Source of the DNA: Thioalkalivibrio sp. ALJ12
Lineage (GTDB): Bacteria; Pseudomonadota; Gammaproteobacteria; Ectothiorhodospirales; Ectothiorhodospiraceae
Direction: 5' to 3'
DNA length: 64,000 bases
NCBI RefSeq assembly: GCF_000378305.1
Contig: NZ_KB899538.1
Location: 1,396,001 to 1,460,000, forward strand
The stretch's first letter is position 1, and each line of letters starts with the position of its first letter. Below are positions 4,744-24,294 of this stretch, piece by piece. A model generated the notes under the pieces. The model was given only the letters and a program-made list of their open reading frames with translations, was not told where the DNA came from and searched no databases. The position numbers were made by a program, and so were the translations under genes.

Positions 4744-7700
4744 ATGAGTAATCCGACATCCGCGTCTGAAGGTCTCTCGGGTCGCGAACTCGCCCGGGAA
4801 CGGCGCAAGGCCATGTCTCATAATGGCAAGGCTGCCGTGAAGCCGACCGGCCAAACCAAGGGAACGTCGCGTTCTGCCGCGGCCGCGCAAAAGGCGCGCC
4901 AGGCTCAGCGTGTTTCCGAACCGGCCCCCCAGGCGCGGGAGCCGGAGTCGCACTCCAGCGAATCTCAGCCGTCGACCTCGTTCGAGGTCGGCAGCAGCGC
5001 ACCTGCGCGCCGTCCGGAACCGGGCGCGCACGCCGGTGCGTCGAACGGCCGCCAGGCCGCTCTTGAGCGCCGCCAGAAGATGGCGCGCCAGGGCAAGAAG
5101 GCGGTCGGTCGCTCCAATACCCGTGCGCGGGCCCTCGGCGGTTTGGCCCGTGGCGGTTCCGACCGGTCGCGTCAGCTTGAAGCGCTGTCGCAGAACCAGG
5201 GTATGGAAATCGACTGTTCCAACATGAGCGGGCGCGAAATCTGCCGCCTGCGCCGTCAGGCCCTGGCGACCGATGGCAAAAAGGCCATGGCGGCCGAGCC
5301 GCGCCGTGAAGACCTGCTGAAAGGCCAGGGTTCCTTCGCGCCGTCTGCACAGGAAGAGAAAAAGGGCTGTGGCTGTGGCTGCAAGGACGAGAAGTCCGAG
5401 CGCAACGACACCTATAGCGCGGTGACCCCCGAAAGCGACACCGTCGTGGAAAGTGGCCTTGACCAGTTGTGCGACAAGGTGGAGTCCGGTGGCGAGTCCG
5501 CGGGTCCGCATCCGGTGATCTCCGAGGTCCGCGCGATCTGCATGGCGCGCCGCGAGGCGATGGCACAGAACGGCAAGCGTGCGACCAAGCGCCGTTTCAA
5601 CGGCTCCAAGGGCCGCGGTGCCATGCCGCAGGAAGGCGCGTGGAAGGCTGCGAAACGCAAGGGTATGTCCACTCGCGAGGTAGCACGCCAGCGTCGTGAA
5701 GAGCTGTGCACGATTGGTCGCGGTTCTTCGGATCCGGGTCGTCCCTGTGGTCGTCCCCGTGGTCAGACGAGCGAAGCACCGCCGAAGGTGGAAGAGGGCA
5801 CGACCCTCGCCGGTGGTCACATTAGCGGCACGCAAGTCGAGTCGACGCGCAGCGTCACCGGCGCCGAAGCGGGCAGCTGCTCCAACATTACCGGGACCGA
5901 GTACCTGGGCCTCGAGCACTACGAGCGCTACTGCGATGTGCGCCCGAGTGCCAACCCGGCCAAGGTGGGGCACTCCCACACCAGCCGCGGCCAGGAAGTC
6001 AGTGGTACCGAGGTCGGGCGCTCTGCCCGTGTAACGGGGGACGAGTCCGGCTCTTGCGAAGCGATCACCGGCACCGAGTACCTGAGCAGCGAGCAGTACG
6101 AAGGCTTCTGCGGCACCCGTGCGCCGAACAGCGCGCCGCGCACCAGCGTGATGGTGACCCGTCATGGCGAGGGTGTGTCGGGTACGAGCGTCGGCCGTAG
6201 CCCGCGTGTCACCGGTGACGAGTCGGGCTCCTGCCGCGACATCACCGGTACCGAGTACCTGAATACGCAGGCGAGCGAGGTTCCGTGTAACACGGGAAAG
6301 TCCAACGGAGCGCCGATGAAGGTCGGCGTCATGCATACGCTTCGCGGTCGTGAATTGACCGGGACAGAAGTCGGGCGCTCCTCGCGTGTCACCGGTGACG
6401 AGTACGGCAGCTGCAAGCCGGTCACCGGGACCGAATACATCGGTACGGAACAGTTCAAGGGCATGTGCGGTACCCGCCCGGAGCCGACGCCGGCCAAGGT
6501 GCAGGAGCTGCACACGATGGAAGACCAGAGCGTGACGGGTACGGCCGTGGGTCGCAGCTCGAAGGTGACGGGTGACGAGTCCGGATCCTGCCGCCCCCTG
6601 ACGGGTACCCCGTACTACAACCAGGCGGATTTCGGTGACCTGTGTGACCGTCCGGCCGCCGGTGGTGTGCCGAAGGTGGGCGTGATGCACACGCTGCGGG
6701 GTCGGGAAGTCTCCGGCACGCAGCTGGATAGCTCGCTGCGCGTGACCGGTGACGAATACGGCGGCTGCAAGCCGATCACCGGTACCGAGTATGTCGGGTC
6801 CGAGCATTACGACGCCTTCTGTGGCTCCCGTCCGCAGGCCGGCCCGGAAAAAGTCTCCGTGAGCCGCACCTGGAACCAGCAGAACGTCTCGGGTACGTCC
6901 GTGGGCCGCTCGGCACGGGTCACCGGTGACGAGTACGGTGCGTGCAAACCGGTTTCTGGCACGCCCTACATCGGCGCTGACCAGTACGAGGCTTATTGCG
7001 AGCCGCGTGATATGCAGACGGCGCACACCCGCGTGGCCGAACGCCATGCGACGCCGGGGCATCCGGTTTCCGGGAGCCAGCCGGGTTATGACGAGCGCGT
7101 GACGGGCACCGAACGCGGTGCATGTCAGGACGTGTCCGGTGCGCCGTATGTCGGGGCGAACGAATTTGCCGCGACCTGTCCGACGGCCGCTGGCAGCTTG
7201 CACCCGCGTCTGCGTCCGGAAGGCCAGGCCGCAGTAGCCGCACCGGTGGCCGACGTGCCGGCGCAGGCGATGCCGAATGACGGCTTCAGTGTTCAAAGCC
7301 CGGCCCGCGAAGCCTTGGCGCGCCGCGAGCGTCGTGTGACCGGTACTGCATACGGTGCCTCGGGTGGCATTACCGGGCCGATCAACAAGGCGACGGGCCT
7401 GGTGTCCGGGACCGAGGAGTTCCGCTATCAGCCGGATCGTCACCAGCCGGTACCGGCTCAGGCTGAAGATGTGGCCAAGATTGGTGCCGAACGTGTGACC
7501 GTTAACGGGAGCAGCAACGGTGTGACCATCACGGGCGATGACTGGGCCCGTGGAAGCAGCGTCACCGGCACCGAAGGGTTCGCCACGCGTCGTAACGCGA
7601 CGCAAAAGGGCAACCCGCGTGGTGAAGGCCGTAGTGCCTATGCCAATCGTGAGCTCGAGCGCAAGGAAGTGCCGATGAGCAAGATCACCGGTTCCTCCGG

Positions 7701-7752
7701 GAATAGTGGCAGCGGTTCGCTGGTGACCCTGTCCGGCGGTGCCCGCGGCTAA
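4744..7752 (+). CDS. csoS2: Carboxysome assembly scaffold protein CsoS2
   Basis: Intrinsically disordered scaffold linking Rubisco to the shell; 1002 residues, on the long side of the family. The N-terminal region has five basic helix motifs of the type GRELARERRKAM at about residues 11-30, 102-121, 161-182, 260-281 and 308-321; their homologues bind Rubisco. The middle region (about 357-765) has eight Cys-containing repeats with triads of the form VSGT...VTGDE.GSC...ITGTEY. The C-terminal region ends in the conserved shell-anchoring tail ITGSSGN...SGGARG. An unusual CGCGC cluster sits in the N-terminal linker at about residues 209-213. SD AAGGAAG precedes the ATG. In H. neapolitanus two isoforms arise by programmed frameshifting; here the frame is open throughout. 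Confidence 0.98.
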   Translation: MSNPTSASEGLSGRELARERRKAMSHNGKAAVKPTGQTKGTSRSAAAAQKARQAQRVSEPAPQAREPESHSSESQPSTSFEVGSSAPARRPEPGAHAGASNGRQAALERRQKMARQGKKAVGRSNTRARALGGLARGGSDRSRQLEALSQNQGMEIDCSNMSGREICRLRRQALATDGKKAMAAEPRREDLLKGQGSFAPSAQEEKKGCGCGCKDEKSERNDTYSAVTPESDTVVESGLDQLCDKVESGGESAGPHPVISEVRAICMARREAMAQNGKRATKRRFNGSKGRGAMPQEGAWKAAKRKGMSTREVARQRREELCTIGRGSSDPGRPCGRPRGQTSEAPPKVEEGTTLAGGHISGTQVESTRSVTGAEAGSCSNITGTEYLGLEHYERYCDVRPSANPAKVGHSHTSRGQEVSGTEVGRSARVTGDESGSCEAITGTEYLSSEQYEGFCGTRAPNSAPRTSVMVTRHGEGVSGTSVGRSPRVTGDESGSCRDITGTEYLNTQASEVPCNTGKSNGAPMKVGVMHTLRGRELTGTEVGRSSRVTGDEYGSCKPVTGTEYIGTEQFKGMCGTRPEPTPAKVQELHTMEDQSVTGTAVGRSSKVTGDESGSCRPLTGTPYYNQADFGDLCDRPAAGGVPKVGVMHTLRGREVSGTQLDSSLRVTGDEYGGCKPITGTEYVGSEHYDAFCGSRPQAGPEKVSVSRTWNQQNVSGTSVGRSARVTGDEYGACKPVSGTPYIGADQYEAYCEPRDMQTAHTRVAERHATPGHPVSGSQPGYDERVTGTERGACQDVSGAPYVGANEFAATCPTAAGSLHPRLRPEGQAAVAAPVADVPAQAMPNDGFSVQSPAREALARRERRVTGTAYGASGGITGPINKATGLVSGTEEFRYQPDRHQPVPAQAEDVAKIGAERVTVNGSSNGVTITGDDWARGSSVTGTEGFATRRNATQKGNPRGEGRSAYANRELERKEVPMSKITGSSGNSGSGSLVTLSGGARG

Positions 7753-7781: not shown

Positions 7782-9350
7782 ATGGTGCGCCGAGGCCGCC
7801 GCAAGACTTCCGCCTTTGGCACGCGTTACGCGACGCCACGGGGAAGTGCCGTCCGGTCGCCGGTGGCACAAGGGGCGAATTCGGCTGCTGCGCAACCTCT
7901 GGTTAGCGCAGTGCCGCCGAAGGCGCCGGCGCCGATGGACGTGCCTTCTGTGCTGAAGCCCGGGCATCCGCTGGCGGATGTCGCCGACAACGAACGGCTG
8001 TACGCGTTCGAGAGTGGGTTTCGCGATCGCTTCGCGAATCTGGTGCCAGTACTGAAAGAGGTCCATGCGCTGCAACACGAGCGGGACTTCGAGGAAAAGG
8101 CGCAACGGATTGTCGAGGATAACCTCGGGTATCGGTTGCCGGAACGCGTCCTGGAGGATGCGTGGATCAACGATCTGGACACGCGCGAACTGTACCTGCA
8201 CGGCACGTTCGAGCTGTTTGATCAGCTGGTCAATGAATACTGGGCGGGTCGGGATGACCTGGTGGACGAGGCGGAACGCGCGATTGCGTACTTCCTCGAC
8301 TGCGATTTCCACGAAGTGGACATCTCGCCCTGTTCCGACGGGCGGCTGTTGAGCCTGCGGCGTTTTATTCTGCGCCTGCCGGATCTGGCTGTTCGGGTTA
8401 AGAGTTATGCCGGTGCGCAGTTCGACATCGAAGAGGATGTCCGCCACTGGACGAAACGCGAGCTGTTGCGGTTCCGCGAAGGACGGCCGACCACGGCGGA
8501 TGTGCCGAGTCGATACCTGAAGATCGCGGCGTACCACTACAGCAGTGCGGACCCGCACCATCAGGGGTGCGCGGCGCACGGCAACAGTGAGCGGGACGCG
8601 GCGGATGCCGCTCTCCGGCAGCTGCGGGCGTTTCGTCAGGCGATCGAGAACACCTACTGCTGTGGGGCCTCGGTCGATACGCTGCTGATTGGCGTGGATA
8701 CGGATACGGATGCCGTGAAGATCCATATCCCGGACGCCGACACGCGGATGAGTCTGTACCGCTTCGTGGATAGCGCGAAGGTGTACCGGGAGACGCAGGA
8801 CCTGGATGGCCGTGACGCGGAACTGCGCGTGTATCAGGCGATCCAGGACGCGATCCACCAGCAAGGCTGGGGTCACGGCAACGGTGGGCCGCACGAGGGG
8901 ATGCTTCGGCTGATCTCGCGGCTGTTGCTGAACAATATTTCGCAGCTCGATTACGTGGCGCGCTACCACAACGGGCATTACGCCGATGTGGGGCACCGCG
9001 AGCGGGTGATCATCGTCGGCCAGGAAGTCGAGGAGATGCAGGTACGCAACTTTGCCTACTTCGCGCACCTGGAAACGATGGAAGAAGGCGCCCACGGGAT
9101 GGATGTGGGGGTGAACAAGATCTTTCGGCAGCTGAATGTCGAGCGGGGCCTGCCGGTACCGGTGGTGATCCATTACCGCTACGACCGCAAGGTGCCGGGG
9201 TCGCGCGAGCGGGTCGAGGCCCGCTGCCGGCGGATCCGCGACCAGATCATGGCGCGCTATCGCGAACTGGCCGAAAAGGGCCTGATCGGGTGCCACATGG
9301 TGATTCGCGACAAGCGCAGCGGCAGCCAGTTGGAACCGCTCGCCGGTTGA
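7782..9350 (+). CDS. csoSCA: Carboxysome shell carbonic anhydrase (epsilon class)
   Basis: Converts bicarbonate to CO2 inside the carboxysome next to Rubisco. It has 522 residues, typical of the family. The N-terminal 55 residues are basic and low-complexity, matching the disordered Rubisco-binding peptide known in Halothiobacillus. The catalytic domain shows the Asp/Arg dyad and first zinc Cys in CSDGR (C184, D186, R188), then H252 (in YHY) and C263 (in HQGCAAHG); the 11-residue His-Cys spacing matches the family zinc site. A defective duplicate domain forms the C-terminal half. The SD (AAGGAGG) is a long 13 bases from the ATG, so translation initiation may be modest. Located between csoS2 and csoS4A as usual. 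Confidence 0.97.
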   Translation: MVRRGRRKTSAFGTRYATPRGSAVRSPVAQGANSAAAQPLVSAVPPKAPAPMDVPSVLKPGHPLADVADNERLYAFESGFRDRFANLVPVLKEVHALQHERDFEEKAQRIVEDNLGYRLPERVLEDAWINDLDTRELYLHGTFELFDQLVNEYWAGRDDLVDEAERAIAYFLDCDFHEVDISPCSDGRLLSLRRFILRLPDLAVRVKSYAGAQFDIEEDVRHWTKRELLRFREGRPTTADVPSRYLKIAAYHYSSADPHHQGCAAHGNSERDAADAALRQLRAFRQAIENTYCCGASVDTLLIGVDTDTDAVKIHIPDADTRMSLYRFVDSAKVYRETQDLDGRDAELRVYQAIQDAIHQQGWGHGNGGPHEGMLRLISRLLLNNISQLDYVARYHNGHYADVGHRERVIIVGQEVEEMQVRNFAYFAHLETMEEGAHGMDVGVNKIFRQLNVERGLPVPVVIHYRYDRKVPGSRERVEARCRRIRDQIMARYRELAEKGLIGCHMVIRDKRSGSQLEPLAG

Positions 9351-10330: not shown

Positions 10331-10624
10331 ATGGCTAGCGAAAACTTTGGTGTGGCCCTCGGCATGATCGAGACCCGTGGTCTGGTCCCGGCGATTGAAG
10401 CTGCCGATGCGATGACCAAGGCCTCGGAAGTGCGCCTGATCGGTCGTCAGTTCGTCGGTGGCGGTTACGTGACCGTTCTGGTGCGTGGCGAGACCGGCGC
10501 TGTGAACGCTGCGGTGCGTGCCGGCGCGGATTCCTGCGAGCGTGTGGGTGACGGCCTGGTGGCTGCGCACATCATTGCCCGTGTGCATTCCGAGGTGGAA
10601 AACATCCTCCCGGAAAAGCCGTAA
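10331..10624 (+). CDS. csoS1: Carboxysome major shell protein CsoS1 (BMC-H), copy 2
   Basis: 97 residues, nearly identical to copy 1 through the whole BMC core, ending NILPEKP. It forms facet hexamers. SD AGGAGTTAAGTA lies just before the ATG, 31 bases after copy 1. Which of the CsoS1A/B/C names applies cannot be settled from order alone, so the generic symbol is used. A small GCGGCG/CGCCGC hairpin (10631-10648) follows in the gap to copy 3. Confidence 0.97.
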   Translation: MASENFGVALGMIETRGLVPAIEAADAMTKASEVRLIGRQFVGGGYVTVLVRGETGAVNAAVRAGADSCERVGDGLVAAHIIARVHSEVENILPEKP

Positions 10625-12963: not shown

Positions 12964-13767
12964 ATGCAAGACGATCTGCGCGATCACCTGATCACGGAAG
13001 AGCCGTATTACCAGCCGGTCGCGGACGAGATCGAGCTGTACGAGGCGGCGTATTCGGTGCGCATGCCGATGATGCTGAAGGGGCCGACGGGCTGCGGGAA
13101 GACCCGCTTCGTCGAGCACATGGCCTGGAAGCTCGGCAAGCCGCTGATTACGGTCGCCTGTAACGAGGACATGACGGCTTCCGATCTGGTCGGGCGTTAT
13201 CTGCTCGATGCCGATGGCACGCGCTGGCAGGACGGTCCGTTGACCCTGGCCGCGCGCCACGGGGCGATCTGCTACCTCGACGAGATTGTCGAGGCCCGGC
13301 AGGACACCACGGTAGTGATCCACCCGTTGACCGACAATCGCCGCGTGCTGCCGCTGGAAAAGAAGGGCGAGATGGTCCAGGCGCACGCGGATTTCCAGGT
13401 CGTCATTTCCTACAACCCGGGTTATCAGAGCCTGATGAAGGATCTGAAGCAGTCGACCAAGCAGCGCTTCGGCGCGCTGGATTTCGACTACCCGGATCAC
13501 GAGACCGAGGCGAAGATCGTCGCTCACGAGGGCAAGATCAACGAGGAGATGGCCGGCAAGCTGGTCAGCGTGGCCGAGCGCGCGCGCAACCTGAAGGGCC
13601 ATGGCCTGGACGAGGGCATCTCCACCCGCATGCTGGTCTACGCCGCCTCGCTGATCGCCAAGGGCGTGGAGCCGCTAGGCGCCTGCCGCATGGCGCTCGT
13701 GCGGCCGATCACCGACGATCCGGACATGCGCGACGCGCTGGATTCGGCCGTCACCACGTTCTTCTAG
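12964..13767 (+). CDS. cbbQ: Rubisco activase AAA+ subunit CbbQ
   Basis: 267-residue MoxR-type AAA+ ATPase. Walker [11 protein letters not shown] at about residue 41; Walker B-like CYLDEIVEA at about 102; sensor-type SYNPGYQ at about 144. With CbbO it forms the CbbQO motor that removes inhibitory sugar phosphates from Rubisco active sites. SD TGAGGAG precedes the ATG. CbbO follows after 25 bases. Confidence 0.96.
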
Positions 13768-13792
13768 CGCACCGCGCGGCGTACCCGTACCG

Positions 13793-16114
13793 ATGAGCGT
13801 TCATCTGGAGGACTACCAGGACCTCCTCGACGATCTGGGAAACCACGCCACCGAGGTGCTGGAAAGTTCCTGGCAGGAGGCCAGCCGTGCCTTCAGCGCC
13901 AGTGGGCTTAAGCGTTACTACCTTGAAGGGGCCCGCAGTCTCCAGGCCCTGGGGCGCGGTTCCGAGATGGTCGTGGCCTTCGTGCAGGAGGCGCCTGCAC
14001 TGGCCCAGGAACTGGGCGAGGATGCCGTTGCGGAACTGCTCGGTTCCGCGATCAAGATGTACTCCAAGACCTCCGCGGCGGTCATCACCCTGGTGATCGA
14101 GACTAGCCCGGTCGCGGCCCAGCGGCTTGGCGACTATTCGCTGTTCGAGGGGTATCTGCGCCTGCTGGATAACCTGCTGGGGCAGGCGCCGCGTGGTGTG
14201 CGGCCGATGCTGGAACACCTGGATGAGCTGCTGACCCACCTGACGCTGGGCGGTCTTCGGCGCTGGGCGACGTGGGGCGCGCAGGCGCACCGCACGGACC
14301 TGGAGGGCCAGATTGCCTACTTCGGTCTGGAGTCGCCGGAGTCACGCTCGGTGTTCCAGAAGGAGCGCCGCGGCACCCTGTTCGTGGACGTGCAGCGGCG
14401 TATCAACCTCTACTTGCGCTCGCTGTGGGCACGCGATTTCTTCATGCGCCCGACCAGTGGCGACTTCGAGTCGCGCGAGGGGTATCGCCCCTACATCGAG
14501 GGCTTCACGATCTTCCTGCCGGACGCCTACGACGATGTCGAGGGCCTCACCGGGCTGGATCTGTATCGCGCGGCGGCCGCGCACGCGGCATCCCATGTGG
14601 TGCATACCCGCGAGATGCAGCCGGACGAGGGGCCTCGGGGCGTGGTCGGCATCCTGACCGAGCTGTTCGAGGACGCGCGTATTGAGGCCCTGGCGATCGC
14701 GGCGTTCCCGGGCCTGCGCCAGATCTGGGTCCCGCTGCATACCGCCACGGCGGAGGATGGGGACACGGCGCAGGCAGTGCTGGCGCGCACCGCGCGCGCC
14801 TTGCTCGATCCGCAATACCACGACCCGCATGCATTCGTGCAGAAGGCGGTGAGCGCGTTTGCGGAACGCGTGGACGACCTTGAGGCCGCAGGGCTGGCCC
14901 GCGAGCTGGCCGAGGTGCTGGCACCCGAGTTTCCCGAGCAGGGCTACATGAACCCGGCCAAGGTCGCGCCGGATGTCCTCTATCGCGACGACAACCGCTA
15001 TCTCTGGAACTTCGGGCGCGAAGAGGAAGAGGCGGAGGTCCTGGCCGCGCATGGCTCCGGGCAGGAGCGTTTCTACGTCACCCCGATGCAGATGATCAAT
15101 ACGTTGGACGTGCCGAACGCCGGCGACGACGCCCAGCAGATCCTGGTGCTGGCGACCGAGTGGTTCCGCGACGGCGAAAACGAAAGCATCAACCAGCAGG
15201 AGGGCAAGGAGCCGATCTCGCTGCCGTTCCACTATCACGAGTGGGACTACCAGATGCAGCTGGAGCGGCCGCACTGGGTCACACTGCTGGAGCGGCGCCC
15301 GAAGAAGGGCGACATCGAGGAAATCGAGGCCATCTACGACAAGCACAAGCCGCTGGTCTCGCGCCTGAAATTCCTGATCGAGGCGATGCAGCCCCAGGGC
15401 GTTCAGCGCATGCGCAAGCAGCCGGAGGGCGACGAGCTGGACGTGAACGCGCTGGTCGAGGCCCAGATTGACGTCCGCATGCGGCGCCAGCCCGACGAGC
15501 GCATCTATGTGCGCAATCTGCGTCATGTGCGCGATCTCTCCGTGCTGGTGCTGCTGGATCTGTCGGAGTCGACCAACGAGACGATCGGCGACGGCGAGAC
15601 AACCGTGGTGCAACTGGCGCGCGAAGCGGCCACGCTGCTGTCCGGCGCGATCTCGCGCATTGGCGACCCGTTCGCGATCCATGGCTTCGCCTCCGACGGG
15701 CGCCACGACGTCGAGTACTACCGCTTCAAGGATTTCGACGCCCCGTTCGACGATACCGCGAAGGCCCGCCTCGCCGGGATGCAGGGCCAGCTCTCCACCC
15801 GCATGGGGGCGGCCATTCGCCACGCCGGCCAGCAGCTGCACAACCAGGGCACGGCGAAGAAGCTGTTGCTGATCATCACCGACGGCGAGCCGGCGGATAC
15901 CGATGTGCGCGACCCGCAGTACCTGCGTCAGGATGCGAAGCGGGCGGTGGAGGAGGTTGGGCGCAAGGGGGTGTACACCTTCTGCATGAGCCTGGATCCG
16001 AACGCCGACGAGTACGTCGAGCGCATCTTCGGGGCCCAGCACTTCATGGTGCTGGACCAGATCGACCGGCTGCCGGAGAAGCTGCCGATGCTGTACGCGG
16101 GTCTCACGCGGTAA
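13793..16114 (+). CDS. cbbO: Rubisco activase adaptor CbbO (VWA domain)
   Basis: 773-residue partner of CbbQ. The large N-terminal region (1-550) is helical; the C-terminal von Willebrand A domain starts at about residue 580 with the MIDAS motif LLDLSESTNE (DxSxS) and a later TDGEPADTDVRD. In the known complex the VWA domain contacts Rubisco while CbbQ hexamers supply ATP-driven remodelling. The length is normal for the family. Confidence 0.96.
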   Translation: MSVHLEDYQDLLDDLGNHATEVLESSWQEASRAFSASGLKRYYLEGARSLQALGRGSEMVVAFVQEAPALAQELGEDAVAELLGSAIKMYSKTSAAVITLVIETSPVAAQRLGDYSLFEGYLRLLDNLLGQAPRGVRPMLEHLDELLTHLTLGGLRRWATWGAQAHRTDLEGQIAYFGLESPESRSVFQKERRGTLFVDVQRRINLYLRSLWARDFFMRPTSGDFESREGYRPYIEGFTIFLPDAYDDVEGLTGLDLYRAAAAHAASHVVHTREMQPDEGPRGVVGILTELFEDARIEALAIAAFPGLRQIWVPLHTATAEDGDTAQAVLARTARALLDPQYHDPHAFVQKAVSAFAERVDDLEAAGLARELAEVLAPEFPEQGYMNPAKVAPDVLYRDDNRYLWNFGREEEEAEVLAAHGSGQERFYVTPMQMINTLDVPNAGDDAQQILVLATEWFRDGENESINQQEGKEPISLPFHYHEWDYQMQLERPHWVTLLERRPKKGDIEEIEAIYDKHKPLVSRLKFLIEAMQPQGVQRMRKQPEGDELDVNALVEAQIDVRMRRQPDERIYVRNLRHVRDLSVLVLLDLSESTNETIGDGETTVVQLAREAATLLSGAISRIGDPFAIHGFASDGRHDVEYYRFKDFDAPFDDTAKARLAGMQGQLSTRMGAAIRHAGQQLHNQGTAKKLLLIITDGEPADTDVRDPQYLRQDAKRAVEEVGRKGVYTFCMSLDPNADEYVERIFGAQHFMVLDQIDRLPEKLPMLYAGLTR

Positions 16115-16128
16115 ACGATACGTCGCGT

Positions 16129-17151
16129 ATGACTCAGTCCCCTACGCCAAAGGAGTCCGGTCTCCCGCAGGTGATGCTCAAGTCGGAGCTGCCGGCGCAC
16201 CTGATCCGGCATGCCACGCTGCGTCAGCTGCAGGTGTTCGAGGCGATCGTGCGCCTGGGGAGCTTTACCCGCGCGGCGGAAGAGCTGCATCTGACCCAGC
16301 CGACCGTCTCGATCCAGATCAAGAAGCTCTCCACGGCACTGGGGCTCCCGCTGTTTGAATACGTGGGGCGCAAGGCCTTCCCGACCGAGGTCGGGCTGCT
16401 GCTGTACGACACCTGCCGCGAGATGCTCGGCGCGCTGACCAACCTCGAGATGAAGCTGGCCGAGATGCACGGCCTCAAGCGCGGGCGTCTGCGTCTCGCG
16501 GTGATCACCACGGCGCAGTACTTCGCGCCCAGCATCCTCGGTCAGTTCGCCCGGCGGTATCCCGATATCGAGCTGTCGCTGGAGGTCAGCAACTTTGACC
16601 GGGTGCTGGAGCGGCTGTCGAACAACGACGACGACCTCTACATCATTGGGCATGTCCCCGAGCGGCTGACTGATGTCGCGGTGCACCCGTTCGCGCCCAA
16701 TCCGCTGGTGGTGATGGCCAGCCGCGACCACCCGCTGGTCGGCCGGCGCAATATCCCGCTCAAGGAGCTGGAGCAGGAGACGTTCCTGATGCGCGAACCC
16801 GGCTCGGGTATCCGCGAGGCGACGCTCAAGCTGTTCCAGGAGCACGGGATCAGCCCGCCCGTGCGCATGGAACTGGGCAGTAACGAGGCGATCAAGCAGG
16901 CGGTGATCGGTGGTCTGGGGATTGCCGTGCTGTCGCTGCACACCCTGAGTGCCGAGGGGGCCGAGGGCCCGGTGGCGCTGCTGGATGTCGAGCACTTCCC
17001 GATCCATCGCCAGTGGCACATCGTCTACCCGAAGAAGAAGGTCCTGTCCGTCGTCGCCCAGACCTTTCTCGACTTCGCCATCCAGGACGAGGCCCGGGTG
17101 CGCGGGCAGGTCGAGGACCTGCTGGCCGCGTTCAAGGCCCAGGCCGGCTGA
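16129..17151 (+). CDS. cbbR: LysR-type transcriptional regulator, CbbR-like
   Basis: 340 residues. Winged HTH at about residues 25-85 (RQLQVFEAIVRLGSFTRAAE, then LTQPTVSIQIKKL), followed by a type 2 periplasmic-binding-like effector domain (about 110-310). The first 24 residues are an extra leader before the HTH. It starts 14 bases after cbbO in the same direction, so it belongs to the cbbQO transcript, and it is not divergent from cbbL as cbbR often is. The CbbR call rests on this context and on the HTH; the target is presumably the AT-rich region before cbbL. Confidence 0.85.
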   Translation: MTQSPTPKESGLPQVMLKSELPAHLIRHATLRQLQVFEAIVRLGSFTRAAEELHLTQPTVSIQIKKLSTALGLPLFEYVGRKAFPTEVGLLLYDTCREMLGALTNLEMKLAEMHGLKRGRLRLAVITTAQYFAPSILGQFARRYPDIELSLEVSNFDRVLERLSNNDDDLYIIGHVPERLTDVAVHPFAPNPLVVMASRDHPLVGRRNIPLKELEQETFLMREPGSGIREATLKLFQEHGISPPVRMELGSNEAIKQAVIGGLGIAVLSLHTLSAEGAEGPVALLDVEHFPIHRQWHIVYPKKKVLSVVAQTFLDFAIQDEARVRGQVEDLLAAFKAQAG

Positions 17152-17184: not shown

Positions 17185-17265
17185 GGGAAACGCTGATTGA
17201 TCGGCGTTTCCCTGCGGCACAGGGACGTGCCGCCGGAATCGACCGCCGTAGGCGGTTGATTCCGG
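17185..17265 (+). repeat. Three consecutive hairpins between cbbR and the SnoaL-like gene
   Basis: Three perfect or near-perfect hairpins abut: GGGAAACGC/GCGTTTCCC (17185-17212, 10-base loop), GCGGCAC/GTGCCGC (17214-17233) and a 15-bp stem with one G-T pair around a GTA loop (17233-17265). The first matches the terminal sequence of the repeat element at 53542-53823. No T-run follows. It could be a mobile palindromic repeat remnant that also serves as 3' end of the cbbR message. Confidence 0.65.
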
Positions 17266-17414
17266 AGCAAGCTGCAAACCCCTTTGCCCGTGCAAAGAGA
17301 TGCAAGACGATGCAGCGCCGCGTGCGCTGAGAAAGCCGGGATGGCTTTATTCAGCGCTTTCTTTAAAATTCACGTTTTACCCGGCCGCCATCGGCCCGAG
17401 TGGGAGAACGCGCA

Positions 17415-17981
17415 GTGAGCACCGTGACCCGTCCGCGTATCAGCGGTACCCAGTTCATCAACGCCGACGAGGCCCCGCGTTCGCGGCTGAGCCTGAGCGC
17501 CTCGCACCGCGACCAGCATCACCCGGTGACCGGGACGGGCAGCGATATGCTCGCCGCCGCGATCGATACCCCGCCGAACGAGAGCTGCGTGGTCTGCGCA
17601 CCCGCCACGCGCCGTCTGGCCGAGGAGTTGTTCGACGCCTGGAATGAAGCCCTGCAGACGGGCGATGCCCGTCGTGTGACCGAGCTGTACGCCAATGACG
17701 CGGTGCTGCTGCCGACCGTGTCGAACGTCCCGCGTACCAATCACGCCGAGATCCAGGACTACTTCGAGCATTTCCTCGAGAAGAAGCCCTTCGGCACCAT
17801 CAACACGCGCAACGTGAAGCTCGGCTGCAACAAGCTGACCGACGCCGGCACCTATACCTTCCGCGTGACCGACGGCAACGAGACGCAGGAAGTCCCCGCG
17901 CGCTACACCTTCGTCTACGAGAACCGCGACGGCAAGTGGCTGATCGTGCACCATCACTCGTCGATGATGCCGACCGCCTGA
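17415..17981 (+). CDS. SnoaL/CaMKII-association-domain (SgcJ/EcaC-like) protein with CsoS2-like N-terminal motifs
   Basis: 188 residues from the GTG at 17415. Residues about 62-188 form a cystatin-like alpha+beta cone fold of the SnoaL/DUF4440 class: helix ATRRLAEELFDAWNEAL, YANDAVLLPTVS, HAEIQDYFEHFLEKKP, then YTFVYENRDGKWLIVHHHSS. The first 60 residues are disordered and contain RPRISGTQ and HHPVTGTGSD, closely like the ISGTQ and HPVSGSQ segments of the neighbouring CsoS2, plus an ESCVVC Cys pair. I infer it is a carboxysome-associated protein, either targeted to the shell by these motifs or bound to CsoS2 partners. Catalytic function unknown. A GTG 15 bases upstream is an alternative start. 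Confidence 0.8.
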   Translation: MSTVTRPRISGTQFINADEAPRSRLSLSASHRDQHHPVTGTGSDMLAAAIDTPPNESCVVCAPATRRLAEELFDAWNEALQTGDARRVTELYANDAVLLPTVSNVPRTNHAEIQDYFEHFLEKKPFGTINTRNVKLGCNKLTDAGTYTFRVTDGNETQEVPARYTFVYENRDGKWLIVHHHSSMMPTA

Positions 17982-18036: not shown

Positions 18037-19854
18037 TTAGCGGTCTTGTTGCAGGGCCCGAGCGAGCTTGATACCGCTCGAGATCAGCCCTACATGACTG
18101 AATGCCTGCGGGAAATTGCCGAGGAAGGCGCCGGTGGCCGGGTCAATCTGTTCGGGGAGCAGGCCGAGGGGATTGGTGCGGGCGCACAGCGAGTCGTACA
18201 GGGCCTGGGCTTCTTCCAGGCGGCCCTGTCCCAGCAGGTTGTCGACCAGCCAGAAGCTGCACAGGACAAATGCACCCTCGTGCCCGGGCAGACCGTCCGG
18301 GGACTCTTCCGGAAGATAGCGGTACAGCAGGCCGTTGCCCGCGCCCAGGCGCCGGATAACGGCCTCTGTGGTGGCGATCATCTTCGGGTGATCGGCCGGG
18401 ATTACACCGCGTCCCGGCAGGGCCAGCAGGCTCGCGTCGATGCCACCGCCGCCCAGGTGCTCGGTGAGACTCCGAAGCTCGGGGTCCCAGGCCTGGTCCA
18501 GGATTGCCTTGCGGATTTGTCCCGCCTCGGAACGCCACAGGTCGCTGTTGCCTGCCATGCCATTGTTATCGGCCAGGGCCGCTCCACGCTCCAGGGCGAC
18601 CGCACACAGGGCGGCGGAGTAGGTAAAGGGACGGCCGGCGGTGCGGACTTCCCAGATGCCATGATCGGGGTTCTTCCACTCCTTCTCGGCGGCTTCGACC
18701 AGTCGCCGCAGGCGGCTCCACAGGTGCTCATCCAGCGTCCCGCCCCAGCGCTCCCACCGATAGGCGCAATCGAGGATCTCTCCGAATACGTCGTGCTGGC
18801 GCTGCTCCACCGCACCGTTGCCCCAGCGTACAGGCGCTGAGCCTCGGTAGCCCTCCAGTTCGGGATCGATTCGCTCCGGCTGCGGCAGGTGCCCGTCTAC
18901 GTCATACAGCACCCGTGGCCAGCCCGCGCGATCCACCGCGTCCAGGGCCCAGCCGATAAAGCCCGCGGCCTCGTGGGTCATGCCGATATCGCTCATGGCA
19001 TACACGGAAAATGCCGCATCGCGTATCCATGCGTAGCGGTAATCCCAGTTGCGCGGGCCGCCTATTGCTTCCGGCAGGGACGAGGTCGGCGCGGCGATCA
19101 TCGCTCCGGTCGCGGTGTAGTCCATCAACTTGAGCGTGACGGCCGAGCGCCGGACGAGGTCCTCGCAGGGGCCTTCATAGTGGAAATGGGTCATCCAGCG
19201 CCGCCAGACCTCCAGCGTGGCCTCGAGCAGTTCCTCGGGTGTGCGGGCCTGGAAACGGTGCGTGTGCGGGCCCCAGCCCAGGATCAGGTAGTGCTGGTCT
19301 CCGGCCTCGAGTTCGTGTTCGCTGTCGGTGTCCTCCAAGGGCAGCGACGAGCTCAGCGACAGCTCCAGTTCCGGCTGGCGGTACAGCGACAGGCCCAGGC
19401 CGGCACCGTGTGGATACGCCTTCGCACCTCCCCTGGGTGCGATCCTGACCCGCAGGCGCACGCGGCCTTCCAGCACCTCGATCCGCCGGAGCAGTTCGTT
19501 GCGCCCTGCCGGCGCATCCTCGGACAAGTCGGCCCCGGCGCGCAGGGGCAGACAATCAGTGACCCGGATGCGTCCTTCGGGGCCGGTCATCTCCGTGATC
19601 AGGACCGCAGTGTCGGGCATATAGCGCTGGTGCGAGGCGACCAGGGGCTCCGGGGCCACGGTGAAGTCACCGCCTCGCTGGTGATCGAGCAGAGCGCAGA
19701 ACAGGGGCTCGGAATCGAAGCGGGGCACGCACATCCAGGGGATGGACCCGTCGCGCCCCACCAGGGCGGCAGTCGTGCAATTGCCTATCAGGCCGTGTTC
19801 TTCGATGGGCAGGTAGCCCTCGACACGGGATATGGGGCGGTCGGATACCGTCAC
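18037..19854 (-). CDS. Glycoside hydrolase family 15 (glucoamylase/trehalase-like)
   Basis: 605-residue (alpha/alpha)6 enzyme. N-terminal super-beta region begins IEEHGLIGNCTTAALVGRDGSI; the catalytic part holds WDYRYAWIRDAAF at about residue 265 and the general-acid segment NPDHGIWEVR at about 395. GTG start, 4 bases after the treZ stop, so it is last in a treY-treZ-GH15 operon. Members act on glucosyl chains or trehalose; beside TreYZ it may trim malto-oligosaccharides or recycle trehalose. Sequence alone does not decide. Confidence 0.9.
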   Translation of the reverse strand: MTVSDRPISRVEGYLPIEEHGLIGNCTTAALVGRDGSIPWMCVPRFDSEPLFCALLDHQRGGDFTVAPEPLVASHQRYMPDTAVLITEMTGPEGRIRVTDCLPLRAGADLSEDAPAGRNELLRRIEVLEGRVRLRVRIAPRGGAKAYPHGAGLGLSLYRQPELELSLSSSLPLEDTDSEHELEAGDQHYLILGWGPHTHRFQARTPEELLEATLEVWRRWMTHFHYEGPCEDLVRRSAVTLKLMDYTATGAMIAAPTSSLPEAIGGPRNWDYRYAWIRDAAFSVYAMSDIGMTHEAAGFIGWALDAVDRAGWPRVLYDVDGHLPQPERIDPELEGYRGSAPVRWGNGAVEQRQHDVFGEILDCAYRWERWGGTLDEHLWSRLRRLVEAAEKEWKNPDHGIWEVRTAGRPFTYSAALCAVALERGAALADNNGMAGNSDLWRSEAGQIRKAILDQAWDPELRSLTEHLGGGGIDASLLALPGRGVIPADHPKMIATTEAVIRRLGAGNGLLYRYLPEESPDGLPGHEGAFVLCSFWLVDNLLGQGRLEEAQALYDSLCARTNPLGLLPEQIDPATGAFLGNFPQAFSHVGLISSGIKLARALQQDR

Positions 19855-19858
19855 GGGC

Positions 19859-21637
19859 TCACTCCCTCGACATGGGATGTTGGCAAGACATACCGGGCGG
19901 ATCGCCCGGTTCCATAATCACGACGGAGGCGCCGGGCAGGTCCAGGTTCTCCTGCCCGATCACGATCTCCGCTTCGGATCGCAGCAGCAGGCGTGATCGT
20001 GCGGTCCCGGGGCATGCCAGGCGTTGCGCATCGGGGTGCAGGTTGCACGCGACCAGCAGTCCCGGCCGGTGCATCACGAACCATCGGGCTGTCTCGTCGA
20101 AGTATGCGTCGATGGCATCCAGGCGATCATCGCTGAAGGCCGGGTGGGTGCGGCGCAGGGCGATCAGCGCCTGGTACCAGCGCAGGATCGCGGCATGTCG
20201 AGGCTGTTCGCGTTCGTCCCAGTCCAGTCTCGATCGTTCGAAGGTCTCGTGGGCCTGCGGGTCCGGGATGTCGCCCGGATCCCCGACGAAGGCGGCGAAC
20301 TCGCGCCGCCGACCCTCGGTGACTGCCTGGCCCAGTTCCGGGTCGGTGTGATCCGTGAAGTACAGAAAGTGGCTCGAGGCGCCCCATTCTTCGCCCTGGA
20401 ACAGCATTGGTACGAAGGGGCTGGTCATGACCAGGGCCGCTCCGACCTTGAGCAGGCCGGGGGAGACCAGTTCGCTGATGCGTTCTCCGTTGGCGCGGTT
20501 GCCGATCTGGTCGTGGTTCTGCAGGCAACCGACGAAGCGCCGTCCCGGCTGGTCCGCCGCGGGGCGGCCGTGCCGCCGGCGGCGGAAGGGCGAATAGCGG
20601 CCGTCGTTGGCGAGGCCGCGGGTCAGCACCCGGGCCAGGTCGGCCAGCCCGCGAAAGTCCATGTAGTAGCCGTCGGACTCGCCGGTCAGTGCGGTGTGCA
20701 GCGCGTGATGGAAATCCTCGTTCCACTGGGCGTCCAGCCCGTAGCCGCCGGCCTCGACCGGCCACGCCACGCGCGGGTCGTTGCGGTCGTTCTCGGCGAT
20801 CACCACCAGGTGCCGGCCGAGCTGCCGCCCGAGGCGCTGCACCTCGCCGGCGAGCTGCTCGAGGAAATGGGTGGCCGAGGTGTCGACGATCGCGTGCACC
20901 GCGTCGATGCGCAGGCCGTCGATGTGATAGTCGCGCAGCCACATCAGGGCATTGTCGATGAAGAACCGGCGCACGCTGTCGCTGTCCGCGCCGTCGAGGT
21001 TGACCGCGTCGCCCCACGGGGTGTGGTAGCGGTCGGTGAAGTAGGGGCTGAACTGCGCCAGGTAGTTGCCGTCCGGCCCGAGGTGGTTATAGACCACGTC
21101 CAGCAGCACCGCGATGCCGCGGCGGTGGCAGGCGTCGACCAGGCGTTTCAGGCCGTCGGGACCCCCGTAGGCATGGTGCGGGGCATACAGGTCGACCCCG
21201 TCGTAGCCCCAGCCGCGGGCGCCGGGAAACGCGGCCACCGGCATCAGCTCCAGGTGGGTGATGCCGAGTTCGGCCAGATGGCCGAGGCGGTCGATCACGC
21301 CGTCGAAGCTGCCCTCCGGGGTGAAGGTGCCGACGTGGATCTCCTGGATCACCGCCGCGGCCAGCGGCGGCGCCTGCCAGCCGGCATCGTTCCAGACGAA
21401 GCGGGAATGGTCCAGCCAGCGCGACGGGCCGTGCACCCCCTGCGGCTGCCAGGCGGAACGCGGGTCGGGGAACGGCCCGTTGCCGTCGACGCGAAAGGCG
21501 TAGTCGCTGCCATGCACCAGCCGCGAGGTCTGCAGCGACCACCAGCCCTCGCCCTGGCGGTCCATCGGCATGCGGCTGCCGCCGCACTCGAGCTCGACCT
21601 GGTTCGCCTGCGGGGCCCAGACGCGTACGCGGGTCAT
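19859..21637 (-). CDS. treZ: Maltooligosyl trehalose trehalohydrolase TreZ
   Basis: 592-residue GH13 enzyme releasing trehalose from maltooligosyl-trehalose. An N-terminal carbohydrate-binding/E-set domain (VRVWAPQANQVELE) is followed by the catalytic barrel: VLLDVVYNHLGPDGNY (region I), GLRIDAVHAI (region II, nucleophile Asp), VIAENDRNDPR (region III, acid Glu), NHDQIGNRA (region IV). The ATG at 21637 overlaps the treY stop codon (ATGA); a longer open frame upstream lies inside treY. Trehalose is a known compatible solute in haloalkaliphiles. Confidence 0.95.
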   Translation of the reverse strand: MTRVRVWAPQANQVELECGGSRMPMDRQGEGWWSLQTSRLVHGSDYAFRVDGNGPFPDPRSAWQPQGVHGPSRWLDHSRFVWNDAGWQAPPLAAAVIQEIHVGTFTPEGSFDGVIDRLGHLAELGITHLELMPVAAFPGARGWGYDGVDLYAPHHAYGGPDGLKRLVDACHRRGIAVLLDVVYNHLGPDGNYLAQFSPYFTDRYHTPWGDAVNLDGADSDSVRRFFIDNALMWLRDYHIDGLRIDAVHAIVDTSATHFLEQLAGEVQRLGRQLGRHLVVIAENDRNDPRVAWPVEAGGYGLDAQWNEDFHHALHTALTGESDGYYMDFRGLADLARVLTRGLANDGRYSPFRRRRHGRPAADQPGRRFVGCLQNHDQIGNRANGERISELVSPGLLKVGAALVMTSPFVPMLFQGEEWGASSHFLYFTDHTDPELGQAVTEGRRREFAAFVGDPGDIPDPQAHETFERSRLDWDEREQPRHAAILRWYQALIALRRTHPAFSDDRLDAIDAYFDETARWFVMHRPGLLVACNLHPDAQRLACPGTARSRLLLRSEAEIVIGQENLDLPGASVVIMEPGDPPGMSCQHPMSRE

Positions 21638-24294
21638 GCGGTCTCTTCCTCGCGTTCGAGCAGTGCCACCGGAAACGCATCGAGGAGCTCGGCCACCAAC
21701 CGGTCGCCGCCCTCGAAGGTCTCGCCCGAGAGGCGGTTGTGCCAGACGCCGGGCGGCAGCCCGAGCCGGGTGTCGCGCCAGTCGCCCCCCAGCCCGAGCA
21801 CCAGGCGCGGCACCAGCACCAGCGCGCCTTCCCCGCGCAGGTAGGCCACTGCATGCCCGGCGCGCTCGCCGGTGACCCGCAGCGGGGTGTAGGCCGCATC
21901 CGGCCGGAACCATTCCGGATGGCGGTGGCGCAGGGTCAGCGCCTGGTGCACCACCCACTGCTTGGGCAGGCCCTCGTCGGCACGGGCACTGATCTGCGTC
22001 GGGGTCAGGTGACCGAGCTCCTCCAGCAGTCGGGCCCGGGTCACGAAGTCCACCGGGCGGCGGTTGTCCGGATCGACCAGGCTCAGGTCCCACAGCTCGC
22101 TGCCCTGGTAGATGTCGGGAACCCCTGGCGCGGTGAGCTTGATCAGGGTCTGGGCCAGGCTGTTGGTGCGGCCGGGGCCGACCAGGGGCTGCAGGAACGA
22201 CTCCAGCGCGTTGCGAAATCCTGCATCCTCCAGCGTCCCGCTCACGAAGTCGCGCAATGCCTGCTCGTAGTCCTCCTGGGGGTGGGTCCAGCTGCTGTAC
22301 TGCTTGGCCTCGCGCGCGGCCTTTTCCATGTAGGCGGTCATGCGCTCGGCATCGATCGGCCAGGCGCCGACCAGCGTCTGGTAGAACAGGTATTCGGTGG
22401 CCGGTTCCGGCCAATCGCCGCTGCGGTAGCGGGCGTTGTGTCGCATCCAGCTGCGCGTGGCTTTTGCCCACGCAACCGGGATCTCGGAGAGCAGTACCAG
22501 GCGCGCGCGCACGTCTTCACTGCGTTTGGTGTCGTGGGTGGAGGTGGTGAGCATGGTCTCCGGGTGACGCGCGTGTACCAGGGCGCAGGCCTCGTGGAAT
22601 GCATCGACCGATATGCCGAAACGTTCCGGGTCGCCACCGACCTCGTTGAGCGCTGTCAGGCGGTGGAAGCGGTACAGCGCGGTGTCCTCGACCCCCTTGG
22701 CCATCGCCGGCCCGGTCAACTGCTGGAAGCGCAGGGCGAGTTCGTTCTCGCGCTCGCCGGGGATGCGCAGCAGGAGCAGGTCGCGCAGGAACTGCAGCAG
22801 CTCGCTGTCCAGCTCCGGACGGCGTTCGCCCGCCTGGTGGATCGCGGCGTCTACATAGTCGACGTCGGTCGCCGCCACTGAGCCTTCACGCGGGCTCACG
22901 TAGGTGCGGTAGACGGGGAAGCAGGAGGCTGTCTCCAGCAGGGCCAGGTGCAGCTCGTGGCGCGTATAGTCGCGGTGTCGGCGGTGCAGTTCGCAGATGT
23001 CCACGAACAGCGAACTCAGCCGGTTCAGCTCGCTGCCGAGCAGGTCCTTCAGTACCTGCCGCTTGGACTCGTAGACCAGCCCGGCGTAGTCGGCGTGCTC
23101 GCCGGTGAGTTCCTCGAACAGCCGCGTCAGCGGGGCCTCGCCCGCCGGGTCCACGAACAGCCCCTGTACGCGGTTGAGAAAGTCGTAGCCGGTGGTGCCG
23201 GCGATCGGCCAGTCTCCGGACAGCTGTTCGCCGGGCTCGAGGATCTTTTCGGCGACGATCCAGGCGCCCGGGCAGGCCCGGCTCAGCTGACTGAAGTACT
23301 GCCCCGGGTCGCGCATGCCGTCGGGGTGGTCGATCCGCAGGCCATGCACCGAGCCTTCCTCTACCCAGCGGAGCGGTAGTGCATGTACTGCCTCGAAGAC
23401 CTCTTCCTGCTCCTGGCGCAGGCCGGCCAGGTCGTTGATGTCGAAGAACCGCCGATAACCGAGATCGCGTCCGGCGGTACGCCACCAGGCCAGGCGGTAG
23501 TTCTGTTTCTCGATCAGTGCATCCAGGGCATCGGGCCGCGTATTGATCTGTTCCACCTCGGCCTCGATGGCCGCGGCGGCCGCCGGATCCTGCCGGGTGG
23601 TGTTGTCGAGGAGTTGACGGATGACGTCCTGATCCCGATGGCGCCGAGACGCCGCGTCGCGGGCGGTCAGCCATGGCTGCGGCAGGCGCGCGCAAGACTC
23701 CGCGAGAAAGCCCAGCAATTCGATACCCGTGGCGCGGTACGCGCGGTGGAGCAGGTCGTTCAGCGAGGACGGGTCCAGCGGGAAGCGGTGTTCGTGACAG
23801 GCGAGCTCGAACAGGCCGTCGCCATACTGGAGACGGATCTCGCCAGCCTCCAGGATGCGCCCGTAATGATCGCCCAGCACCGGCAGGAGCACCTTGTTCG
23901 GCCAGCGCTCCTCCGATGATTCCCAGTCCACATCGAAATACATCGCAAACGGGCTGGAGGGGCCATTCTCCAGTACATTCCACCACCACGGGTTCTGGGC
24001 TCCGGCCACCGCCATGTGGTTCGGTACGATGTCCAGCACCAGGCCCATACCGGCCTGCTCCAGTGCCGCGCACAGGCGCTGGCGCGCCGGCTCACCGCCG
24101 AGCTCGTCGTTCACCCGCGAGGGGTCGACCACGTCATAGCCATGGGTGCTGCCGTGCACCGCCTGCAGGATCGGAGAAAGGTAGAGATGCGATACGCCCA
24201 GCCGGGCCAGGTAGGGGGTCACGCGCGCGGCATCATCCAGTGTGAAGCCGGCGTGCAACTGCAAGCGGCAGGTGGCGGTCCGTTCAGGCTGCAC
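21634..24294 (-). CDS. treY: Maltooligosyl trehalose synthase TreY
   Basis: 886-residue GH13 transglucosidase that converts the reducing-end linkage of malto-oligosaccharides to alpha,alpha-1,1. Motifs: GYDVVDPSRVNDELGG near residue 52, VLDIVPNHMAV at about 84, GLRIDHPDGMRDPGQY at about 321, IVAEKIL at about 352 and TSTHDTKRSEDVR near 577. Length is slightly above the usual 700-830. First gene of a minus-strand operon with treZ and a GH15 gene. TreX (debranching) is not in the window. Confidence 0.96.
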   Translation of the reverse strand: MQPERTATCRLQLHAGFTLDDAARVTPYLARLGVSHLYLSPILQAVHGSTHGYDVVDPSRVNDELGGEPARQRLCAALEQAGMGLVLDIVPNHMAVAGAQNPWWWNVLENGPSSPFAMYFDVDWESSEERWPNKVLLPVLGDHYGRILEAGEIRLQYGDGLFELACHEHRFPLDPSSLNDLLHRAYRATGIELLGFLAESCARLPQPWLTARDAASRRHRDQDVIRQLLDNTTRQDPAAAAAIEAEVEQINTRPDALDALIEKQNYRLAWWRTAGRDLGYRRFFDINDLAGLRQEQEEVFEAVHALPLRWVEEGSVHGLRIDHPDGMRDPGQYFSQLSRACPGAWIVAEKILEPGEQLSGDWPIAGTTGYDFLNRVQGLFVDPAGEAPLTRLFEELTGEHADYAGLVYESKRQVLKDLLGSELNRLSSLFVDICELHRRHRDYTRHELHLALLETASCFPVYRTYVSPREGSVAATDVDYVDAAIHQAGERRPELDSELLQFLRDLLLLRIPGERENELALRFQQLTGPAMAKGVEDTALYRFHRLTALNEVGGDPERFGISVDAFHEACALVHARHPETMLTTSTHDTKRSEDVRARLVLLSEIPVAWAKATRSWMRHNARYRSGDWPEPATEYLFYQTLVGAWPIDAERMTAYMEKAAREAKQYSSWTHPQEDYEQALRDFVSGTLEDAGFRNALESFLQPLVGPGRTNSLAQTLIKLTAPGVPDIYQGSELWDLSLVDPDNRRPVDFVTRARLLEELGHLTPTQISARADEGLPKQWVVHQALTLRHRHPEWFRPDAAYTPLRVTGERAGHAVAYLRGEGALVLVPRLVLGLGGDWRDTRLGLPPGVWHNRLSGETFEGGDRLVAELLDAFPVALLEREEETA

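Follow-up and report, generated by a model that had tools for sequence, protein, structure and literature searches.

In Halothiobacillus neapolitanus, loss of csoSCA, the gene for the beta-class carbonic anhydrase (CA) of the carboxysome, leads to a high-CO2 requirement. An iota-class CA was reportedly described in the carboxysomes of Thiomicrospira by Wieschollek et al. in 2024. This carboxysomal iota-CA is cited and accepted in several papers (PMC12628692, PMC12646314, PMC12918739), against a 2026 review stating that only beta- and gamma-CAs have been found integrated in carboxysomes (PMC13370225). Thiomicrospira is described as lacking csoSCA (PMC9164163). Under carbon limitation of T. pelophila the change in iota-CA transcript was reported as not significant, and the same applied to cbbL, csoS1 and csoS2 (PMC12628692).

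Two other carboxysomal proteins are relevant here. The middle and C-terminal repeats of CsoS2 are disordered and built on [VI][ST]G triplets, often in the form [VI][ST]GT-x-aromatic-aliphatic. The [IV]TG triplets of H. neapolitanus CsoS2 are reported to contact His79 and the backbone of CsoS1A (PMC10484944), and CsoS2 mutants with VTG changed to AAA are described as growing poorly in air (PMC11365436). CsoSCA possesses a disordered N-terminal peptide that is reported to bind Rubisco and to suffice for encapsulation, and H. neapolitanus with a CsoSCA unable to be encapsulated shows a growth defect (PMC10614612); association of CsoSCA with the shell has been reported as well. CA activity in the cytosol is considered incompatible with the bacterial CO2-concentrating mechanism (PMC7714395).

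Bacterial iota-CAs of the COG4875 type comprise a Xanthomonas campestris protein (structure 3h51), called an apparent iota-CA by Hirakawa et al. (PMC8132391) and listed among the iota-CAs in PMC8425729, and BteCA-iota of Burkholderia territorii, reported to hydrate CO2 fast (PMC8425729). For COG4337-type iota-CAs, bicarbonate dehydration was described as not obvious in vitro, and prokaryotic iota-CAs are predicted to have a signal peptide (PMC8132391). The same paper names COG4875 proteins of Synechococcus CC9311 and WH8020; marine Synechococcus are hosts of alpha-carboxysomes.

The window, i.e., the whole stretch of 64,000 nucleotides analysed here, encodes a 188-residue protein that shares features with each of these systems. 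It has the same domain and HHSS motif as the bacterial iota-CAs, but a disordered tail with [VI][ST]G triplets stands in place of their predicted signal peptide. Unlike the CsoS2 repeats it has a catalytic domain attached, and its tail shows two triplets 29 residues apart and no array, compared to the many repeats with 8-residue spacing in CsoS2. As in CsoSCA, a disordered N-terminal peptide precedes the folded part of a CA, although the beta-class fold of CsoSCA is unrelated and its peptide binds Rubisco. With Thiomicrospira it has in common an iota-class CA tied to an alpha-carboxysome locus, whereas csoSCA, missing there, is present in the window and in most of the tested genomes with the tail-bearing form. 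Our data establish the domain identity, the conservation of the tail, its association with CsoS2 genomes and the constraint on its motifs. With a probability of about three in four, we consider that this iota-CA is taken to the inner side of the alpha-carboxysome shell by means of its N-terminal tail.

The carboxysome locus encodes an iota-CA homologue

The following genes of the locus precede the gene under study:

2828-4249, + strand: cbbL (Pfam RuBisCO_large)
4744-7752, + strand: csoS2 (PF12288, E 7e-176)
7782-9350, + strand: csoSCA, beta-class carboxysomal CA (Pfam CsoSCA_N, CsoSCA_cat, CsoSCA_C)
10331-10624, + strand: csoS1, shell hexamer (Pfam BMC)
12964-16114, + strand: relatives of cbbQ and cbbO (Pfam CbbQ_C, VWA)
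16129-17151, + strand: LysR-family regulator, cbbR-like by position

The complete order is cbbL-cbbS-csoS2-csoSCA-csoS4A/B-csoS1-bfr-acRAF-parA-like-cbbQ-cbbO, followed by the LysR regulator and the iota-CA gene, which is thus encoded at the carboxysome locus; gene names that go beyond the Pfam matches, including cbbO, are our assumptions from family knowledge. The CsoS1 of the window carries His80, probably the counterpart of CsoS1A His79. Since csoSCA is present at 7782-9350, we do not class the window protein as a replacement of CsoSCA.

Within and just upstream of the iota-CA gene, these features were recognised:

17402-17406, + strand: GGGAG, resembling a ribosome-binding site, 8 nt 5' of the GTG start (from sequence)
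17415-17981, + strand: gene of the tail-bearing iota-class CA homologue, 188 aa, GTG start
17415-17585, + strand: disordered N-terminal tail, residues 1-57, proposed carboxysome-targeting region (pLDDT, [VI][ST]G)
17433-17462, + strand: motif block 1, residues 7-16 (PRISGTQFIN), resembling CsoS2 [VI][ST]GT-x-Y-[ILV]; dN/dS 0.052
17487-17540, + strand: motif block 2, residues 25-42 (LSLSASHRDQHHPVTGTG), with S26, R32 and the second [VI][TS]G; dN/dS 0.016
17595-17978, + strand: iota-CA domain, residues 61-188 (CaMKII_AD 5e-22; 3h51 by Foldseek 1e-16, 55% identity)
17595-17597, + strand: Cys61, in perfect covariation with its partner Cys138 (17826-17828)
17952-17963, + strand: HHSS (within HHHSS), residues 180-183, motif common to iota-CAs

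Conservation of the protein across relatives, the closest named ones being from Thioalkalivibrio, starts at the start codon at 17415. Residues 71-186 match Pfam CaMKII_AD (SnoaL/NTF2-like fold, 5.2e-22), in agreement with the small cone-fold domain that had been read from the sequence before. Among solved structures, the best sequence match of the 188-aa protein is 3h51 (7e-40), which the domain also matches in the Foldseek comparison, and the second best is the iota-CA 7c5x (4e-7). T101, Y116 and residues 181-183 (HSS) are invariant in all 75 relatives, and His180 is found in 71 of them. The sequence alignment with 7c5x covers the C-terminal part only, and T101 and Y116 are assumed to correspond to Thr106 and Tyr124 of all2909. 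By its domain, the protein is a homologue of the iota-class CAs of the COG4875 type. Neither CsoSCA_N, CsoSCA_cat and CsoSCA_C nor PF12288 (CsoS2_M) is among its Pfam matches.

This identification replaces the view of an undescribed cargo or ligand-binding component put forward in the earlier note: the domain is that of an iota-class CA, a class already reported from Thiomicrospira carboxysomes. Papers on carboxysomes that name the enzyme class with iota spelled out were looked for and none was found, which is a weak test of absence from print. No mention of the tail was found in the literature searched, the scope of which did not include the 2024 Thiomicrospira report. Apparently new here are the CsoS2-like tail, the coexistence with csoSCA and the presence in the model organism.

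A scan for a terminator or promoter 5' of the iota-CA gene found none. Between the LysR and iota-CA genes (17186-17370) inverted repeats were seen by eye, which are common to L003-L005 and without a match in L006, L009 and L013 (117-147 bases each compared). On the other side of the gene, beside the carboxysome locus, positions 18037-24294 (- strand) contain a glycosyl hydrolase family 15 gene followed by large ORFs which by eye resemble enzymes of trehalose or glycan synthesis.

The N-terminal tail contains two constrained motif blocks

In the AlphaFold model pLDDT is below 50 at residues 1-12, 19-22 and 25-58, and ten-residue means range from 79 to 95 from residue 61 onward. The folded enzyme is thus preceded by a tail of about 60 residues that is disordered in the model.

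As stated in the earlier note, the first 60 residues or so contain RPRISGTQ, with ISG at residues 9-11, and HHPVTGTGSD, with VTG at 38-40. The matching sequences in the CsoS2 of the same locus were also confirmed, with small shifts in position: ISGTQ lies at residue 360 (given as ~359) and HPVSGSQ at residue 773 (given as about 778). We counted 28 [VI][ST]G triplets in this CsoS2, the repeats of which had been described in the note as built on V/I-T/S-G triads. The occurrence of the two motifs in the tail is beyond chance. As a background we used 180 ORFs from 11 loci, chosen by a codon-position G+C rule, minus 2 CsoS2 and 10 iota-CA ORFs. None of the 168 remaining proteins has [VI][ST]GT or two [VI][ST]G triplets in the first 60 residues, and 10 of 168 have one triplet there. 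The pattern [VI][ST]GT.[FYG][ILVF] was likewise missing from these 168 proteins and occurs 14 times in the two CsoS2 proteins.

[VI][ST]G[TS] is present in all 14 non-redundant tails; these were aligned on that very motif, and none was excluded for its absence. V and I as well as S and T are exchanged between the 14 tails while the pattern is retained, which at the level of sequence is the behaviour of a short linear motif. S26 and R32 are invariant in 17 aligned tails. The second motif is absent or degenerate at its usual place in L051 (VTQ) and L066. For 12 Thioalkalivibrio-type sequences, dN/dS was 0.052 for residues 7-16 and 0.016 for residues 25-42, as against 0.062 in the enzyme domain, and was higher in the linker (17-24; 0.147) and the spacer (43-50; 0.332). 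Judged by these substitution rates, the motif blocks are constrained as strongly as the enzyme domain, or more.

The likeness to CsoS2 has its limits. The triplet spacing of about 8 residues typical for CsoS2 is not seen in the tail. We also considered whether the tail might be a piece of CsoS2 by homology and rejected this, since a 50-position model of the tail, run on 30 genomes of which 29 encode CsoS2, had no CsoS2 match at E values up to 1. The likeness is therefore confined to short motifs. In the same 30 genomes the tail-only model had its hits on iota-CA genes, 10 of them in the 9 genomes with such a gene (E ≤ 5.1e-13), whereas no match in the remaining 21 had an E value below 0.0096; in G013, G014 and G291, 150 of the first-look candidates were scored.

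The pair of cysteines in ESCVVC (Cys58 and Cys61) had been taken as an echo of the Cys-bearing CsoS2 repeats, a point which did not hold. Cys61 varies together with Cys138 of the enzyme domain: 50 of the 75 sequences have both, 25 have neither and none has only one. Seventeen of the 50 are tail-less, including a paralogue with a signal-peptide-like start (L103), and Cys58 is variable among relatives. ESCVVC is ruled out as a CsoS2 feature by this covariation, which suggests that Cys61 and Cys138 likely form a disulphide of the domain.

The tail is of single origin and tracks CsoS2

The 75 distinct domain sequences were collected by one scan of named genomes (21 loci) and from three genome samples at the level of order (47 genomes), class (369) and phylum (398). 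Thirty-three of them carry the tail, with at least one [VI][ST]G in 33/33 and at least two in 32/33. By eye, 32 of the 42 sequences without tail start with a signal peptide and 10 do not; a single triplet occurs in two of the 42, inside the apparent signal peptide. In a tree from 125 columns, the bootstrap of which was not fully settled and which has several long tail-less branches, all 33 tail-bearing sequences together with one tail-less paralogue form a single clade (100/100). On this phylogeny the tail is of single origin.

In G039 (L103:7727-8206) and also in L003, a tandem iota-CA paralogue with a signal-peptide-like start lies directly behind the tail-bearing gene. By sequence, such a pair would be a natural case of N-termini of the carboxysome type and the secretion type being exchanged. 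The H. neapolitanus relatives G813, G815 and G816 (L110-L112) encode short, distant HHSS proteins with neither an evident tail nor a signal peptide, possibly another, cytosolic iota-CA subfamily.

CsoS2 was found in 32 of the 33 tail-bearing genomes tested, and exceeded the cut-off in none of 40 genomes with tail-less homologues only. As to the individual samples, the tail form was present in 18/47 genomes of the order, all 18 with CsoS2 (37/47 overall), and one genome (G011) had a tail-less homologue and no CsoS2. In the class sample 10/369 genomes had the tail form, 9 of these with CsoS2 (72/369 overall), and CsoS2 was found in 0/14 genomes with tail-less homologues only. Besides G000, the phylum sample yielded 25 genomes, all with tail-less homologues only and none with CsoS2 over the cut-off; G152, G690 and G761 gave sub-threshold matches. 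Among the named-locus genomes, CsoS2 was detected for all eight tail loci tested, two of which were already counted as G203 and G386, and not for the tail-less Pseudomonas locus L023. G000 and G020 belong to both the order and class samples and G152 to both class and phylum, and totals are of unique genomes. Sequences and coordinates agree for the pairings G799 = L015, G802 = L018 and G803 = L014, and G203 was paired with L016 and G386 with L021. These counts leave out G800 and G804 (tail) as well as G813, G815 and G816 (distant tail-less, H. neapolitanus family). The latter three may well have carboxysomes, in which case tail-less homologues would occur beside CsoS2.

The one exception, G104, is 84% complete. 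CsoS2 and CsoSCA were not detected in it, and one of its contigs carries relatives of csoS1D, acRAF, bfr and the LysR gene. Our search for the same N-terminus in genomes without carboxysomes found none, and the CsoS2-like N-terminus is conserved and tracks alpha-carboxysome genomes, by which the targeting idea of the earlier note is largely supported. In the 30 genomes searched with the tail model it occurs on iota-CAs only. Because the tail-bearing proteins are one clade, this association does not represent many independent events. The gene is accessory and patchy, being present in 9/72 CsoS2 genomes of the class, 18/37 of the order and 1/10 in the genus of G808.

A single origin, and the ease with which short motifs arise, would also fit a lineage quirk without function, the carboxysome association being inherited along with autotrophy. 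We regard this as highly improbable, since the motif blocks are conserved like the domain or more while linker and spacer drift, and since V/I and S/T are interchanged with the pattern retained.

Gene position differs between lineages

The iota-CA gene follows cbbQ-cbbO-LysR in 12 Thioalkalivibrio loci (L003-L013, L017). For Guyparkeria and two loci from Halothiobacillus MAGs (L014-L016, L018) its distance to csoS1D is 0.7 to 1.3 kb, and csoS2 was not found within these loci; the 19 kb taken from each of the related G313 and G406 showed neither csoS1D nor csoS2. The iota-CA gene also adjoins csoS1D in L092 (G099), where a Ham1-family gene and csoS1D lie between the genes of two divergent tail-bearing iota-CAs (L092:5340-7824) and CsoSCA was not detected. 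We tentatively take G099 to be T. cyclica; its two proteins belong to the same clade. In G237 (L093:4058-10215), the iota-CA gene is located between a SulP-family transporter gene and dabA with a Proton_antipo_M gene, possibly an inorganic-carbon uptake cluster.

G808 is one contig of 2,582,886 bases and presumably H. neapolitanus (c2); over 505 residues, its CsoSCA shows no difference from the CsoSCA chain used for comparison. CsoS2 is present, and a tail-bearing iota-CA (L113:8794-9363; N-terminus ...RVSGTRFLNDD...VSLSASFRGKGHAITGET...) is encoded about 0.7 Mb from the cso operon, next to genes that by eye resemble pyruvate dehydrogenase genes. Since the tail persists at genomic sites outside the cso operon, we rejected hitch-hiking in the cso locus as an explanation of the association.

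CsoSCA and the tail-bearing iota-CA coexist

CsoSCA was found in 24 of 27 tail genomes tested, the exceptions being G099, G104 and G162, so that replacement is not the general case. Nor does the homologue substitute for CsoSCA in H. neapolitanus, since a growth defect results when encapsulation of CsoSCA is lost.

With CsoSCA present in most of these genomes, there may be no need for another CA. The protein could instead stay in the cytosol or at the shell surface, have little CA activity and serve carboxysome biogenesis in a structural or regulatory way, as its position beside csoS1D in five loci might suggest. Such a role appears improbable to us in view of T101, Y116 and HSS, invariant in 75/75 sequences, the domain dN/dS of 0.062, and the report of an iota-CA as a carboxysomal enzyme in Thiomicrospira.

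A model for loading onto the inner shell

An active, unsecreted iota-CA should be sequestered in a cell with a CO2-concentrating mechanism, because cytosolic CA activity is incompatible with it. From this need, the binding of CsoS2 triplets to the shell and the precedent of the CsoSCA peptide, we infer that the tail loads the protein onto the inner side of the shell; encapsulation, binding to CsoS1, dimer formation and activity all belong to this inferred part. The disordered tail would present two short blocks, each centred on a [VI][ST]G triplet, which would grip the CsoS1 hexamer as CsoS2 does, with main-chain contacts and His79. Binding by two triplets that lie 29 residues from each other may be weak, and a dimer of the iota-CA would display four motifs. 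Once encapsulated, the enzyme would interconvert bicarbonate and CO2 beside Rubisco. It would supplement CsoSCA in genomes that encode both and take the place of CsoSCA in lineages that lack csoSCA.

The least certain element of this model is the partner of the tail, be it the shell, Rubisco or CsoS2. An enzyme that enters the carboxysome with a tail binding Rubisco, similar to the CsoSCA peptide that suffices for encapsulation (PMC10614612), or binding CsoS2, would account for the invariant S26 and R32 outside the triplets. We consider this unlikely, as the letters in common are those that bind CsoS1A in CsoS2, and the CsoS2 middle region is reported to have no interaction with Rubisco or CsoSCA (PMC11365436).

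Loading onto the shell, our preferred reading, leads to a wider proposal, which we put forward tentatively and with somewhat more doubt than trust. The [VI][ST]G code would not be private to CsoS2: an unrelated enzyme would have gained a natural CsoS1-binding encapsulation tail that replaces the signal peptide of its relatives, and many alpha-carboxysomes of chemoautotrophs, possibly including those of H. neapolitanus, would hold two classes of CA, one bound to Rubisco and one pinned to the shell. If this is true, it explains the route of iota-CA into the carboxysome and provides a short natural tag that targets the shell without CsoS2 and could be used to engineer alpha-carboxysomes. The best-studied host of alpha-carboxysomes would then encode a second candidate carboxysomal CA outside its cso operon. 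It has been suggested that, in alkaline water where cofactors are poorly soluble, an enzyme with another metal need beside the zinc enzyme may be of importance (PMC12918739).

At two loci (L019:718-1902, L022:10507-11685) the iota-CA gene overlaps at its end with a gene for a CobW-family GTPase, as assigned by Pfam for the L019 copy and by a similar start for the L022 copy. CobW-family GTPases are linked to metal supply, which makes the overlap noteworthy in view of the dispute about the metal requirement of iota-CAs.
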